Assembly: GCF_008014675.1 (NCBI RefSeq) | Contig: NZ_VOXD01000013.1 | Span: 85,339-149,338, forward strand | Reading direction: 5' to 3' | Origin: Neolewinella aurantiaca | GTDB taxonomy: Bacteria > Bacteroidota > Bacteroidia > Chitinophagales > Saprospiraceae | DNA length: 64,000 nt | Part shown: positions 16,283 through 22,258 of the stretch, piece by piece | Numbering within the stretch: the stretch's first letter is position 1 | Layout: each line of letters begins with the position of its first letter | Notes under the pieces: generated by a model | What the model saw: only the letters and a program-made list of their open reading frames with translations | What the model was told of the DNA's origin: nothing | Databases searched by the model: none | Position numbers and translations under genes: made by a program

Positions 16283-18793
16283 ATGGATAAACACTTCTTT
16301 TATAACCTGCAGTCCCGTGCCAGGCAGTTGGGGCTGAATGTCTGGGCGTGGGTTCGCCGTCAGCCACCACTGAAGCTTGCATTTGCTGTCATTGCCCTGC
16401 TGGTACTGGTAACAACGGTGCTTTTTCTTACCCTTTTCATCAGAACACTGGGAGGCAACTATGGCCATATGCCCGAGCACGCAGAGTTGGCCCTGATCGA
16501 AAACTCGGAAGCCAGCTCGGTTATCAGCGAAGATGGTAAGTTGCTGGGTAAATACTTCAGGGAAAACCGGGTGAGTGTTGAACTGGATGAAATCTCGCCC
16601 TACGTGATCCAGGCCCTGATCGCGACCGAAGACAGTCGGTTTTTCGAGCACCAGGGCATCGACCTTAGGGCTTTAGCCCGGGTGGCCTGGCGTTCTATCA
16701 TCCTTGGTGACCGGAGTGGCGGTGGAGGTTCCACCATTAGCCAGCAGTTGGCCAAGCAACTGTATCCCCGCCACAACAGCGGTAAATTCGGGATGATCAA
16801 GATCAAGATGCGGGAGATGATTATCGCCAGCCGTTTGGAAGAAGTGTACGACAAGCAGGAACTGCTTGCACTGTACCTGAACACTGTTCCCTTCGGCGAA
16901 AACGCTTACGGCATCGAAGTTGCTGCGGGGCGTTTCTTTAGCAAATCCGCCGCAGATTTGAAGGCAGAAGAAGCGGCTGTACTCGTCGGCCTGCTCAAGG
17001 CAAATACCAGCTATAACCCGCGTGCCCACCCTGAGCGGAGCCGCGAACGCCGGGACCTTGTACTGGCCCTGATGGCCCAGAACGGATCGCTCGAGAAAAC
17101 GGTGACCGACAGTCTGGCTGCTCTGCCACTCGTGATCGACTACCAACGCCAGAACGACCGCGTAGGCAGCGCGACTTACTTCCGCCACATGCTCCGCGCC
17201 GAAGCAGAGAAAGCCCTGGCGGGCAAGAAACGGCCGGACAGCCGGCCGTGGGACATCGACCGCGACGGGCTCCTGATCCACGTTAGCGTCAACTCCGTTA
17301 TGCAACGGCTGGCCGAGGAAGCCGTGCTGGAGCAGCTGCCCCGCATCCAGCAGAACCTGGCCATCGACTGGAAATCCGCCAAGCGTGCGCCCTGGGAAGA
17401 TGCCTTTATGAAAACCGTGAAGCGCAGTCCCCGCTATAAAAACCTGGAAGCGGCCGGAAAGAATGAGGACGAGATCATGGAAGTCCTGCGCCAGCCCCGA
17501 CCGATGACGATCTACGACTGGAAAACTGCCGATGCCGTTGATACGATGATGCGGCCAATAGACAGTTTACGCCACTACTTCACCTTGCTGAACGCAGGTT
17601 TGCTGGCCACCGAGCCAGAAAACGGGGTGGTTCGTGCGTGGGTAGGCGGCGTGGATTACCGCTTTGTACAGTACGACCACGTGACGGCCCGCCGGCAGGT
17701 GGGATCCACCATAAAGCCCGTCATTTACGCCACTGCTTTGCAGCGTGGGATGCTGCCTTGCGAATACACCCCGGCGCAGCAGTTCACGATCGAGGACTTC
17801 CAGAACTACAATCCGCGTAACCCCGGCGGCAATTACGAAGGAGCGTACTCAATGCGGGGTGGCCTGGCCAAGTCGGTGAATACCGTTGCCGTAAACCTCG
17901 CCGTCCGCAGCGGGCTCCAGAACGTCGTCGATGAAATCCACGAGTTGGGCATCACCGGTAAGGTGGAGGCTATCCCCAGCGTCGCCCTCGGCACGGTAGA
18001 GGCTACGCTGCCGGAGATGAATACCGTCTTCAGTGCCTTCGCTAACGGCGGCCGGAGGCCGACGGGTGGCATTCATTTCCTCGATAAGATTACGACGGCA
18101 GACGGAGAGACGATCGTCAGCTTTGTCCGGCCGAAGAAAACCATGCGCGTGATGAGCGATACCGTCGCCAACATCACGACCTTCCTGATGACCGGTGTGG
18201 TCAACAACGGTACGGGTGCCCGGCTGCGCAGCACCTACGGCGTCAGCGGCGCCCTGGCCGGAAAAACAGGAACTACGCAGGACCAGTCAGACGGCTGGTT
18301 TGTGGGGTACAACCCGAAGCTTGTGGTAAGCACATGGGTGGGGGCGGAGTACCCCGCTGTTCACTTCCGCACGCTGCGGCGCGGCTCGGCGACTGCTACG
18401 GCCCTGCCCGTGTGGGGAACGTTCATGCGCAAGGTGCAACGGACCCGTGGACTCGGCCGCTACCACGGCGGTAGTTTCCCCCGCCTCGATGAAATGACCG
18501 TCGCTCTGCTGGAATGCCCCGACTACCTCGAAGAATTGCCCGTCTACGCCGAATACGGTGCTCCTGATCCGGAGGACATCATGTCTGTGAACGAAATCAG
18601 GGCCCGGTTGGCTGAGTTCCCCGCCCAGGACGTAGAGCAAATGATGGCCCGCAAGCGCCGCCGCAACAACGAAAGCACGCTTGCTTACACCCGGCGAATC
18701 ATCGGATTGCTGGAAAGAGATAACCGGAGAGATGAACGGAAGGCTAAGCGGAAAGAGTTTTGGGCGAAGACCTTGTTTGGGAAGAAGGATTAG
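16283..18793 (+). CDS. Class A penicillin-binding protein (transglycosylase/transpeptidase)
   Basis: An 836-residue bifunctional peptidoglycan synthase of the PBP1A type. A single membrane anchor lies near residues 33-56. The glycosyltransferase 51 domain carries EDSRFFEHQGID (catalytic Glu near 115) and GGSTISQQLAKQLY. The transpeptidase domain carries STIK near residue 474 (SxxK), KSVN near 530 and KTGTT near 660. The C-terminus is strongly basic. The length is usual for Bacteroidota. The gene converges on the tRNA cluster. Confidence 0.94.
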   Translation: MDKHFFYNLQSRARQLGLNVWAWVRRQPPLKLAFAVIALLVLVTTVLFLTLFIRTLGGNYGHMPEHAELALIENSEASSVISEDGKLLGKYFRENRVSVELDEISPYVIQALIATEDSRFFEHQGIDLRALARVAWRSIILGDRSGGGGSTISQQLAKQLYPRHNSGKFGMIKIKMREMIIASRLEEVYDKQELLALYLNTVPFGENAYGIEVAAGRFFSKSAADLKAEEAAVLVGLLKANTSYNPRAHPERSRERRDLVLALMAQNGSLEKTVTDSLAALPLVIDYQRQNDRVGSATYFRHMLRAEAEKALAGKKRPDSRPWDIDRDGLLIHVSVNSVMQRLAEEAVLEQLPRIQQNLAIDWKSAKRAPWEDAFMKTVKRSPRYKNLEAAGKNEDEIMEVLRQPRPMTIYDWKTADAVDTMMRPIDSLRHYFTLLNAGLLATEPENGVVRAWVGGVDYRFVQYDHVTARRQVGSTIKPVIYATALQRGMLPCEYTPAQQFTIEDFQNYNPRNPGGNYEGAYSMRGGLAKSVNTVAVNLAVRSGLQNVVDEIHELGITGKVEAIPSVALGTVEATLPEMNTVFSAFANGGRRPTGGIHFLDKITTADGETIVSFVRPKKTMRVMSDTVANITTFLMTGVVNNGTGARLRSTYGVSGALAGKTGTTQDQSDGWFVGYNPKLVVSTWVGAEYPAVHFRTLRRGSATATALPVWGTFMRKVQRTRGLGRYHGGSFPRLDEMTVALLECPDYLEELPVYAEYGAPDPEDIMSVNEIRARLAEFPAQDVEQMMARKRRRNNESTLAYTRRIIGLLERDNRRDERKAKRKEFWAKTLFGKKD

Positions 18794-18867
18794 AGACGGC
18801 AGCCGGAATCGAACCGGCATCTCAGGGGTTGCAATCCTGCCCCATTGCCAACATCGGGCATACCGTT
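18794..18867 (-). tRNA. tRNA-Cys (GCA)
   Basis: The anticodon loop is TTGCAAC with anticodon GCA, and the discriminator base is U, as expected for Cys. The T-arm is GCCGG/CCGGC with loop TTCGATT. The acceptor AACGGTA pairs with TGCCGTC except for an A-C mismatch at position 1-72; the anticodon stem has one A-C mismatch next to the loop. CCA is not encoded. Confidence 0.8.
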
Positions 18868-18880
18868 TTGACAGCGTGTG

Positions 18881-18965
18881 CGGTAGGTGAGGGACTCGAA
18901 CCCCCGAATGGTTTCCCACGTCTCTCCTTAGCAAGGAGGCCCGTTACCAGCTCCGGCAACCTACC
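18881..18965 (-). tRNA. tRNA-Ser (GCT)
   Basis: Acceptor GGTAGGT/ACCTACC is perfect, discriminator G, anticodon loop CTTGCTAAG with GCT. A long variable arm marks class II, and the T-arm has the normal loop TTCGAGT. It is 85 nt, without the T-loop insertion seen in the other Ser gene of this cluster. Confidence 0.92.
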
Positions 18966-18978
18966 GTGTTAAAACTTG

Positions 18979-19052
18979 CACCTCCCATAGGAATCGAACC
19001 CATGACGCAACGGAGTTGGAATCCGTCGGCAACACCCACTTGCTGGGGAGGC
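18979..19052 (-). tRNA. tRNA-Trp-like (CCA), unusual D-arm
   Basis: The anticodon stem ACGGA/TCCGT is perfect with loop TTCCAAC (anticodon CCA), the acceptor is GCCTCCC/GGGAGGT, and the discriminator G suits Trp. The D-arm is odd (stem GCAA/TTGC, short loop GTGGGTG), positions 8-9 read CA, and one extra base lies before the anticodon stem. It could be a divergent but active gene or a degenerate copy. Bacteroidota normally have another tRNA-Trp near tuf-secE. Confidence 0.65.
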
Positions 19053-19057
19053 GGTTT

Positions 19058-19085
19058 TTAGAAGCTAGGAATTAGGAGCTAGAAA
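19058..19085. repeat. Heptad tandem array upstream of tRNA-Trp-like gene
   Basis: Four 7-bp units in a row: TTAGAAG, CTAGGAA, TTAGGAG, CTAGAAA. The array lies just before the 5' end of the minus-strand tRNA. Confidence 0.6.
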
Positions 19086-19090
19086 CTTGT

Positions 19091-19250
19091 GGCCTGTCAA
19101 GATCAGATTTTCAGGTAGCCTGCGATGCTTTTTTGCGCCTGACGTCGTTGACCAAACACTTCCGTAGCTACGGCAATGCAAGTATTTGGTCGCCTGGTCA
19201 GCCACAAAAAATCATCAGCATCCAACCCGAAAATTGAACCTTGACAAACC
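19091..19250. repeat. Large imperfect fold-back element in the tRNA cluster
   Basis: The left arm (about 19091-19145) and right arm (about 19195-19250) are imperfect inverted copies, matching at GTCAAG, ATTTTC and GATGC-TTTTTTG blocks. An inner palindrome pairs GACCAAA with TTTGGTC and CCGTAGC with GCTACGG. No coding capacity; origin unknown. Confidence 0.5.
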
Positions 19251-19308
19251 AATAGAGTATTAAGTCATCTCCTCGTAACAATTCACTAATTCCTATCTTC
19301 TAAAATTG

Positions 19309-19382
19309 TGGTGCCGGAAGGATTTGAACCTCCGACCTTCTGTGCTTCAAACAGACGCTGCTACCAACTGAGCTACGACACC
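19309..19382 (-). tRNA. tRNA-Phe (GAA)
   Basis: Acceptor GGTGTCG/CGGCACC, normal D-arm (GCTC/GAGC-like with GGTAG), anticodon stem TCTGT/ACAGA with loop TTGAAGC (GAA), T-loop TTCAAAT and discriminator A. A standard 74-nt cloverleaf. Confidence 0.95.
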
Positions 19383-19393
19383 GGAATAACTTG

Positions 19394-19500
19394 CGGAAAC
19401 TGAAGGAGTCGATCTCCGAAGGAAGCAGCGTAGCTAACCTTCGACCTTTCAGTCGGGCTGGTTTTCAAGACCAGTTGCACGCCACCGCGCCCCAGCTTCC
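19394..19500 (-). tRNA. tRNA-Ser (TGA) with a 24-nt insertion in the T-loop
   Basis: The acceptor GGAAGCT/AGTTTCC pairs fully (one G-T), with discriminator G. The anticodon stem CTGGT/ACCAG holds loop CTTGAAA (anticodon TGA), and a class II variable arm is present. The T-stem GAAGG/CCTTC is perfect, but its loop is split: T54 is followed by 24 extra bases (19413-19436) before TCGACT. Without the insert the gene is a normal 83-nt tRNA. The insert can fold as AGC-TAC-GCT followed by a CTTCC / GGAGA hairpin with a TTC loop. Whether it is removed from the transcript is unknown. Confidence 0.8.
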
Positions 19501-19506
19501 ATATCC

Positions 19507-19600
19507 GTTAACAAACATTCCGGTTTTCCACCTCTCCCCCCGCCCTTTCCTACAGGCTTCGCCCAAGGCTCAGCGGAGAGGGAGCCAAAATGTCTGTTAC
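19507..19600. mobile_element. Diverged MITE-like element
   Basis: Imperfect termini GTTAACAAACATTCCGG and CCAAAATGTCTGTTAC enclose an interior (CCACCTCTCCCCCCGCCC ... GGCTCAGCGGAGAGG). In inverted orientation the interior resembles the element at 8433-8578. No clear flanking duplication remains. It lies between tRNA-Ser and tRNA-Pro. Confidence 0.5.
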
Positions 19601-19622
19601 TTAGCGGTCAATGAATTAATCG

Positions 19623-19697
19623 TACGGGTAGTCCGACTCGAACGGACATCTCCTGCGCTCCAAACGCAACTCTTTCGGCCAATTAAGATACACCCGT
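19623..19697 (-). tRNA. tRNA-Pro (TGG), A1-U72 type
   Basis: The full cloverleaf fits: acceptor ACGGGTG/TACCCGT, D-stem TCTT/AAGA, anticodon stem TTGCG/CGCAG with loop TTTGGAG (anticodon TGG), T-arm GTCCG/CGGAC with loop TTCGAGT, discriminator A. Bacterial tRNA-Pro normally starts with C1-G72; the A1-U72 pair here is unusual. Confidence 0.85.
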
Positions 19698-19703
19698 AAA
19701 AGA

Positions 19704-19740
19704 GAAGGCCCGCCGGTGAACTTGTCACCAACGGGCCTTC
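19704..19740 (-). terminator. Hairpin between the CAT tRNA and tRNA-Pro
   Basis: GAAGGCCCG pairs with CGGGCCTTC, and the stem extends through GGTGA/TCACC. On the minus strand it is followed by TCTCTTTT, giving a plausible intrinsic terminator that splits the tRNA cluster into two units. Confidence 0.65.
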
Positions 19741-19862
19741 CAAAACGCATGCTTTACGCACACTGGTCAGCTACCGTCAGGACGGGGGAGAAGGGATAAA
19801 ACAACTCGGTGACCAGAATAGAAACATGATGATTGAATTTTTTAGCTTTGAATTTTTCTTTG

Positions 19863-19958
19863 ATGCGGGAAGAGGGTTCGACCGCCGAAGGCAGCAGCGC
19901 AGCTAACCCACGATCACTGGCTTATGAGACCGGTATGCTACCACTGCACTACCCCGCA
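19863..19958 (-). tRNA. tRNA with CAT anticodon and a 24-nt T-loop insertion
   Basis: The cloverleaf adds up to 72 nt once 24 bases (19882-19905) are removed from the T-loop. Acceptor TGCGGGG/TCCCGCA, D-stem GTGC/GCAT, anticodon stem CCGGT/GCCAG with loop CTCATAA (anticodon CAT), T-stem GTGGG/CCTCT. The insert sits after T54, the same place as in the Ser gene, and 20 of 24 bases agree. The anticodon stem has one mismatch and the T-stem has one mismatch plus two G-T pairs, so a decaying copy is possible. It could serve Met or, if modified, Ile; lack of the GGG/CCC anticodon stem argues against an initiator. Confidence 0.6.
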
Positions 19959-20320: not shown

Positions 20321-22258
20321 CTAGTACGTCAACTGCTCCTTAAAGAAAGCGATAAATTCTTCGACGGACATCGTGCCCTTATCGCCTTCGCCCTGCACGC
20401 GCACGGCAACGCCGCCGGCCTCGACTTCCTTCTCGCCTACGATGAGCATGAAGGGGATGCGGTTGGTTTCGTTGTCGCGAATCTTGCGGCCGATGGTCTC
20501 GTTGCGGTCGTCCACCAAGCCACGGATATCGTGGGCGGCGAGCTGCTGGGAGACCTCGTGGCAGTAGTCGTTGTACTTTTCGCTGATGGGGAGGATGGCA
20601 AACTGATCGGGCGTTAGCCAGAGCGGGAACTTGCCGCCGGTGTGCTCGATGAGGATGGAGGTGAAGCGCTCCAGCGATCCGAAGGGTGCGCGGTGGATCA
20701 TCACCGGGCGGTGGGGCTGGTTGTCGGAGCCAATGTACTCCAGCTCGAAACGTTCGGGCAGGTTGTAGTCTACCTGTACGGTGCCGAGCTGCCAGCTGCG
20801 GCCAATAGCGTCGCGAACCATGAAGTCGAGCTTGGGACCGTAGAAAGCGGCTTCGCCGTACTCGGTTACGGTCTTAATATCGATCTCCTTACAGGCATCG
20901 ATGATGGCCTGCTCGGCGGTCTCCCAGTTTTCTTCGGAGCCGATGTACTTTTCGGGCTTGTCCGGGTCGCGTAGCGAGATCTGGGCGGTCACGTCGTCGA
21001 AGCCGATGAGGTTAAGGACGTCCTTCACGATGTCTACCACGGCGATGAATTCGTCCTTCACCTGGTTGGGCATACAGAAGATGTGAGCATCGTCCTGCGT
21101 GAAGCCGCGTACGCGGCTCAGGCCGTGCAGCTCACCGGTTTGCTCGTAACGGTAAACGGTGCCGAACTCGGCGAGGCGCAGCGGGAGCTCTTTGTAAGAG
21201 CGCGGGCGGAATTTGTACATCTCGCAGTGGTGCGGGCAGTTCATGGGCTTAAGCATGAACTCCTCGTCTACCCGTGGGGTCTTTATGGGCTGGAAGCTGT
21301 CTTCTCCGTATTTGTCCCAGTGACCGGAGGTCACGTACAGGTCTTTCTTGCCGATGTGCGGCGTGGTTACCTGCTGGTAGCCGGCGTTTTCCTGCTTTAC
21401 TTTCAGGAAATTCACGAGGCGTTCGCGGAGCTGGGTGCCTTTTGGCAGCCACATCGGGAGGCCGGCGCCAACTTTGTCGGAGAACATGAAAAGTTCGAGT
21501 TCCTTACCTAGTTTGCGGTGGTCGCGCTTCTTGGCTTCTTCCAGCATTTCGAGGTATTCCTTCAGCTCTTTGGCCTTGGGGAAGGAGATGCCGGAGATGC
21601 GGGTGAGCTGTTTGTTGTTTTCGTCGCCGCGCCAGAAGGCACCGCCGACTTTCATCAGCTTGATCGCCTTGATGGCACCCGTGTTGGGGATGTGTGGGCC
21701 ACGGCAGAGATCGGTGAACTCACCCTGGGTGTAGAAGGTGATGGTGCCGTCTTCGAGGGCGTCCAGCAGTTCCAGTTTGTACTCGTCGCCTTTTTCGGTG
21801 AAATAAGCGATAGCATCGGCCTTGCTTACTTCCTTACGGGTGAATTTGTTTTTCTGGCGGGCCAGTTCCAGCATCTTAGCTTCGATCTTCGGGAAGTCGT
21901 CGGTACTGATCACGGTTCCTTCGGGGGGCTCTACGTCGTAGAAGAACCCCTTTTCACTGGCGGGGCCGTAGCCGAACTTGATGCCGGGGTAGAGGGCTTC
22001 CAACGCTTCGGCCATCAGGTGGGCCGTAGAGTGCCAGAAGGTTTCCTTGCCCTGCTGGTCGTTCCAGGTATGAAGGGCGAGGGTGGCGTCTTTTGTGAGT
22101 GGGAGGTCGCGGTCGGTCAGTTGGCCGTTTACGGTAGCTGATACGACGTTGCGGGCAAGGCCGCTGGAAATACTTTCGGCAATCTGAAAAGCAGAGGTGC
22201 CGGACTCGTACTGACGGACGTTGCCGTCCGGAAAAGTGATGTTGATCATCAGGGTCAT
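20321..22258 (-). CDS. thrS: Threonyl-tRNA synthetase
   Basis: A 645-residue class II synthetase that charges tRNA-Thr. It has an N-terminal TGS domain ([15 protein letters not shown]), an editing domain with [11 protein letters not shown] near residue 76, and the catalytic core with [46 protein letters not shown] and the motif 3 region [11 protein letters not shown]. The anticodon-binding domain is at the C-terminus. An AGGAAGG sequence 7 bases before the ATG at 22258 supports that start over the ATG nine bases downstream. Octad repeats and a TAACTTTG box lie upstream. Confidence 0.97.

Follow-up and report, generated by a model that had tools for sequence, protein, structure and literature searches.

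The window analyzed here, a stretch of 64,000 nucleotides from Neolewinella aurantiaca, carries on its minus strand a cluster of seven tRNA genes (Cys, Ser(GCU), Trp, Phe, Ser(UGA), Pro(UGG), and CAU; 18793..19958). The cluster lies between a penicillin-binding-protein-like (PBP-like) gene on the plus strand (16283..18793), named by inspection of its translation, and thrS on the minus strand (20321..22258), also named by inspection and used as the flanking gene for comparing the locus among relatives. Two of the seven genes are interrupted, both on the minus strand: tRNA-Ser(UGA) (19394..19500, 83 nt plus 24) and tRNA(CAU) (19863..19958, 72 nt plus 24). In each of them a 24-nt double-hairpin element sits in the T-loop between T54 and T55, at 19413..19436 (equivalently 19412-19435, minus strand) in the Ser gene and at 19882..19905 (equivalently 19881-19904, minus strand) in the CAU gene.

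A preliminary description had singled out these inserts, and the coordinates, length, and T-loop position that it gave are all exact on the minus strand. Its portrayal of the insert as structured, precise, common to both genes, and unusual also holds: the two copies are identical at 20 of the 24 positions, insert positions 14 and 22 change together (T-A in one, G-C in the other), and ARAGORN finds the other five tRNAs of the cluster free of the insert. Its wording of the pair as isoacceptors needs correction, as Ser and Met/Ile tRNAs are not isoacceptors. A joint pattern of the two inserts matched twice in the window and not once in 100 shuffles. With the 24 nt left in, ARAGORN calls neither interrupted gene; with the 24 nt deleted by script, it calls a tRNA-Ser(tga) and a tRNA-Met(cat) that span the junction. 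Removal of 24 nt at random places produced a junction-spanning tRNA call in 2 of 1000 trials, and a second control gave 2 of 1185, where both junctions adjoin real tRNAs. At Rfam gathering scores, the whole window returned tRNA matches only and no intron family.

The question raised earlier, whether the interrupted genes are the only Ser-UGA and CAU genes of the organism, could be answered in the negative. The genome (G000; 5,995,659 bases in 104 contigs, 99.3% complete) gave 50 tRNA-family matches; in the loci retrieved on their account, ARAGORN named 48 tRNAs. There is an uninterrupted tRNA-Ser(UGA) at G000:C30:67619-67706, contigs C11, C49, and C8 hold three uninterrupted CAU tRNAs, and each of the seven anticodons of the window cluster is served by a further gene outside it. 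The earlier description held that intact second copies of both tRNAs, together with silence of the window loci, would mark the interrupted genes as pseudogenes; the part of this that concerns intact copies is what we found. Within the cluster, the tRNA-family scores are 63.5 bits for Phe, then 50, 48.3, 41.3, and 29.9, with 29.8 for the interrupted CAU gene, and the interrupted Ser gene is missing from the 50 matches. The second genes for all seven anticodons and these match scores indicate that the window cluster is an auxiliary tRNA set.

A similar auxiliary set (Ser-GCU, Cys, Ser-UGA, Trp, CAU, and Arg-CCU), in which every gene was called uninterrupted, is present in the congener G002, and an uninterrupted relative of the window CAU tRNA is found in the congener G005 (L158:5024-5095, minus strand). 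Compared with this relative, the T-stem of the window CAU gene is weak, its 3′ strand reading CCTCT against CCCAC with the same 5′ strand GTGGG in both. Among 59 relatives searched, ARAGORN found no tRNA in the 29 thrS loci that were fetched, with flanks of up to 1.5 kb. In the close relative G008 (thrS identity 93%), about 430 bp separate thrS from the PBP-like gene, and a CAU tRNA in decay could be made out by eye at this locus; it has no T-loop insert and instead bears a different large insertion after the D-arm. The decayed G008 gene and the weak T-stem of the window CAU gene fit a decay of unneeded genes.

A phage origin of the cluster was considered and rejected, since 39 phage records match but the 10 listed each cover at most 7% of the query. 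The cluster also contains two other dispersed repeats, at window positions 19080-19257 and 19515-19594, for which the genus holds many partial copies, roughly 70-93% identical. At L157:5166-5272 (G015:C44), a gene that looks by eye like a tRNA-Tyr, and part of which ARAGORN calls Gly, has an unusually long variable region resembling another hairpin insertion; it is accompanied by Pro and Trp tRNAs related to those of the window.

The insert is not peculiar to the two tRNA genes. A 20-base pattern allowing up to 3 mismatches matched 56 places in the genome of N. aurantiaca versus 12 for its reversed control. A 24-base pattern allowing at most 1 mismatch found 29 copies in this genome and was present in 20 of the 21 genus genomes (0-64 copies per genome), and its reversed control gave 0 matches in each of the 21. 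With a GGTT-prefixed pattern and at most 2 mismatches, 20 of 21 genus genomes were positive versus a single one among 79 further genomes from the family and order. A scan of the exact form over 84,980 species returned 72 matching stretches, mainly from Neolewinella/Lewinella (41) and Crocinitomicaceae MAGs (11), the remainder coming from Brumimicrobium (4), Fluviicola (4), Sphingobacterium (4), Parapedobacter (3), a Saprospiraceae MAG (3), and single stretches in a Bacteroidetes MAG and a Verrucomicrobia MAG. The element is concentrated in the genus Neolewinella and is not confined to it. Carriage by phages was rejected after the viral contigs yielded 0 exact matches.

Copies occur in non-tRNA DNA as well as in truncated tRNA copies, and some of these settings deserve mention. 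At L279 (4862-4888) and L331 (574-600), the element lies within an ORF that by inspection is group II intron reverse-transcriptase-like, and the flanks at L286, L297, L343, and L275 resemble those of L279 and L331, suggesting the same insertion place. In G006, many copies (L184-L187, L189, L190, and L193-L198) are embedded in stretches where an 8-nt unit of the type CATTCACG is repeated; the SDRs of Nostoc/Anabaena are likewise found in heptamer repeats. In N. aurantiaca itself, a larger dispersed repeat (L033, L035-L041, L043, and L049) has the element flanked by a C-rich and a G-rich arm that are complementary to each other.

To describe the element, 237 distinct copies from the fetched loci were grouped by flanking sequence into 89 clusters, and a consensus was built from one copy per cluster: K-N-GC-TNC-GC-N'-GCTGCC-TNC-GGCGG. 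Hairpin 1 consists of N-GC/GC-N' around a TNC loop, and hairpin 2, in its common variant, of GCC/GGC around a second TNC, that is (T)GCC / TNC / GGC(G); the loop bases 5 and 17 are variable. Positions 1 and 9 pair in 86 of 89 clusters (permuted mean 42, maximum 58) as A-T, C-G, or T-A, in a sample whose search pattern restricted position 1 to A, C, or T and position 9 to T, G, or A; when both positions were left free in an exact-pattern scan, 81 of 82 copies still paired. Positions 13 and 21 pair in 88 of 89 clusters as G-C, T-A, or A-T (permuted mean 69, maximum 76). Such covarying stems mean that selection or copying keeps two small hairpins.

Most copies had been found by patterns favoring TT on the left, and the left flank was therefore judged on an unconstrained set of 99 places in 37 flank clusters. 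Position -2 is T at 86 of these places and in 36 of the clusters, and position -1 is T at 69 places (25 clusters) or G at 27 places (12 clusters), so that the left boundary of the element is not uniform. At the other end, position 24 is T in 86 of 89 clusters, but this position belonged to the search patterns; a shorter pattern gave 21 matches in the genome of N. aurantiaca, chance ones among them, and 17 of these have T there. The simplest reading is that the element lies between two Ts (T^T).

Comparison of filled with empty sites gave a difference of exactly 24 in nine comparisons at five tRNA sites, with no target duplication, the set being made up of one between-species pair and several within-genome paralogue pairs. 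The between-species pair is the window CAU gene against its uninterrupted G005 relative (+24). Against adjoining intact genes, an Arg-CCG copy shows +24 in the anticodon loop and, with a variant of the element, +24 in the T-loop; the Trp copies of G011 and G001 and the three tandem copies of G004 each show +24 in the anticodon loop. An Asp fragment has +24 in its T-loop. Two further comparisons gave other values, +25 for an Asn fragment and +22 for a shorter variant in the D-loop of the G001 Trp copy.

Altogether, 16 of the 237 distinct copies lie in tRNA sequence, and 14 of these are in broken copies beside an intact tRNA; every interrupted tRNA copy except the two of the window adjoins an intact gene. 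Eight are in Trp anticodon loops of five species (one each in G011, G001, and G002, three in tandem in G004, and two in tandem in G006), and the others are in an Arg anticodon loop, an Asp T-loop, four Asn T-loops, and the Ser and CAU T-loops of the window. Only the two window genes, out of the 237 copies, leave a complete tRNA call when the element is removed, so that they could conceivably be in a young, still useful state.

The arrays themselves are varied. At L272 (G002:C50:93195-96267), an intact tRNA-Asn is followed by about five tandem 80-nt units that are 3′ tRNA-Asn fragments with the element in the T-loop; four of these units are within 2 mismatches of the element, and a similar Asp fragment lies nearby. 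One to three broken tRNA-Trp genes stand beside an intact tRNA-Trp at L111 (G004:C29), L109 (G001:C11), L122 (G006:C33), L253 (G002:C24), and L234 (G011:C115), and some of these broken copies have, in addition, a shorter element within the D-loop or a different insert within the T-loop.

The 237-copy sample is biased, as one search pattern began with GGTT, and the BLAST rule for a tRNA match is lenient, as 29 of 1263 randomly chosen places in these loci, many of which were fetched for their tRNAs, also passed it. In the five fully listed genomes, at no more than 1 mismatch, 6 of the 100 places examined are in tRNA sequence (101 were listed and one was not fetched). By our estimates, tRNA genes make up ~0.065% of the genome, a share that would rise to roughly 0.65% if insertion could occur in just a tenth of the genome; the binomial tails for 6 of 101 are 9e-11 at 0.065% and 6e-5 at 0.65%, and they overstate the evidence because the Trp copies of the several species may have a common origin. 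In 101 tRNAs, 541 of 755 TT or AA sites are unpaired, so that a T^T target alone can account for the matches being in loops.

Taken together, the insert is a copy of the dispersed 24-nt double-hairpin repeat of the genus. We consider it likely that this repeat, acting as a tiny non-autonomous mobile element, transposed into the T^T of the two T-loops and probably left both genes non-functional. Among the options first put forward for these genes (removal of the insert, special tolerance, or dead genes), the last is favored, given the intact copies of both tRNAs elsewhere and the nature of the insert as a dispersed repeat. T-loops would be struck because tRNAs carry the target T54-T55-C56, and the insertions would persist because the struck genes are redundant. 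The insert would presumably stay in the RNA rather than being removed, and some enzyme acting in trans would move the element.

These observations also bear on three other ways of reading the interrupted genes. Known bacterial tRNA introns are mostly group I introns, which are far longer than 24 nt; both the element and group I introns interrupt tRNA genes, but the group I fold and size are absent here. A bacterial T-loop intron, in which the 24 nt would be cut from the precursor and the ends joined to give working tRNAs, could draw on the precise and structured insert and on the complete tRNAs read after its removal. It is nonetheless extremely unlikely, as intact copies of both tRNAs exist, the element also sits in non-tRNA DNA and in truncated tRNA copies, the CAU T-stem is weak compared with its uninterrupted relative, and structure prediction for the interrupted Ser RNA has the 5′ strand of the T-stem paired with the insert. 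The suggestion that the insert is spliced out is thus not supported, and the intact copies and the dispersed repeat led us to reject an intron as the main reading. The cell might instead retain the interrupted genes for altered tRNA-like RNAs, such as decoys or regulators whose loops are extended. The arrays of interrupted copies beside intact tRNA-Trp (in five species) and tRNA-Asn would suit such a role; the truncation of the copies differs by species, several bear further insertions, and no promoter-like site was found in the window region (shuffled mean 0.9, with a consensus that may not fit this phylum), which makes it very unlikely. An element that seeks hairpin tips in general, whether cruciform or single-strand loops, with tRNA loops as one kind of tip, is somewhat easier to entertain, although we still judge it improbable. 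The tRNA insertions are in loops, some other copies lie between the arms of longer stems, and 6 of the first 55 flank clusters had stems of 8 or more versus 3.1% in swapped controls. When the set grew to 89 clusters, the excess became smaller (p 0.046 for the mean and 0.07-0.23 for the counts; p 0.11 for the mean without the tRNA cases), and the loop bias needs no extra cause given the share of unpaired TT or AA sites. A general preference for hairpin tips looked suggestive in 55 clusters but failed to hold up in 89, where any remaining signal is marginal at most.

No mover enzyme was identified among the candidates examined, RAYT (Y1_Tnp) and group II maturase. A REP-like nature of the element, with a RAYT (Y1) transposase acting on single-stranded DNA to move it, is possible, if doubtful. 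Y1_Tnp genes occur in 20 of 21 genus genomes, G018 is both the only genome without a Y1_Tnp match and the only one without a copy at 1 mismatch or less, an insertion without target duplication suits a single-strand mechanism, and in G006 about 3.3 kb separate one copy from a Y1_Tnp match. Against this, no listed copy in the five fully listed genomes is within 6 kb of any of 15 Y1_Tnp matches, the motif is absent within about 1.5 kb in five fetched RAYT loci, the element has no terminal GTAG, and G014 has six Y1_Tnp matches but one copy. Group II introns were rejected as the mover, as the maturase PF08388 is found in 3 of 21 genus genomes and is absent from the other 18, including those richest in copies (none in G000, G002, G005, G006, and G019). 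The double hairpin could also move as RNA, the 24-nt RNA inserting itself or being ligated into U-U steps of tRNA loops and the interrupted tRNAs then being reverse-transcribed and laid down beside their parent genes. Such a route would explain the missing target duplication, the insertions in T-, anticodon, and (for the variant) D-loops, and the broken Trp and Asn copies beside intact ones, and we regard it as a long shot. If true, no retro-mobile element smaller than this one would be known, and tRNAs would serve as its vehicle.

Returning to our best reading, a small mobile element moved in trans, it would resemble the cyanobacterial SDRs and the mitochondrial double-hairpin elements in its working; the likeness is one of features in both cases. 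The SDRs of Nostoc/Anabaena, for which Elhai and colleagues (2008) are the reported source, are said to be ~21-27 nt long, to be structured with compensatory changes, and to occur in many contexts, including tandem short repeats. Size and copy number would be alike (24 nt and 29 copies in the genome of N. aurantiaca), as would a structure backed by compensatory changes, and mobility is indicated here by filled and empty sites. The present element differs in its phylum, its T^T target, and its presence in tRNA loops with empty sites. To our knowledge, no mover is known for SDRs. Rickettsia palindromic elements are palindromes inserted inside genes, larger and mainly in protein genes; both they and the present element are palindromes within genes, here of 24 nt in tRNA loops. 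The element also departs from a MITE of a DDE transposon, as there is no target-site duplication and the net gain is 24 between two Ts already in the empty site.

Passages of PMC4390886, PMC3116915, and PMC2884548 take up the SDRs of Nostoc/Anabaena. For the mitochondrial double-hairpin elements of Allomyces, part of PMC2800124 reports that flanking duplications are missing and that an RNA route is possible. These and the repetitive hairpin-forming elements of sponges, as treated there, share with the present element the form of small hairpins spreading within a genome, but those are in organelle genomes. REP and REPIN sequences, in the portions of PMC3733652 and PMC3116915 that concern them, are like it short, dispersed, non-autonomous palindromes of bacteria, tagged by a terminal GTAG (or CGTC) according to a section of PMC3733652. 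In contrast, our consensus has no GTAG or CGTC tag and consists of two adjacent small hairpins, and the copies are not linked to RAYT genes (five loci; 15 matches), except for the one ~3.3 kb away in G006. A non-exhaustive literature search found no description of this repeat or of such T-loop inserts in Bacteroidota.

Few kinds of mobile DNA are as poorly understood as elements of about 20-30 nt. The interrupted genes of N. aurantiaca carry a caution, as interrupted bacterial tRNA genes can mimic intron-bearing genes, and tRNA loops emerge as a recurrent landing site of the element. For seeking the mover, the family offers precise pairs of filled and empty sites, a target of two bases, and a genus whose type strains are deposited.
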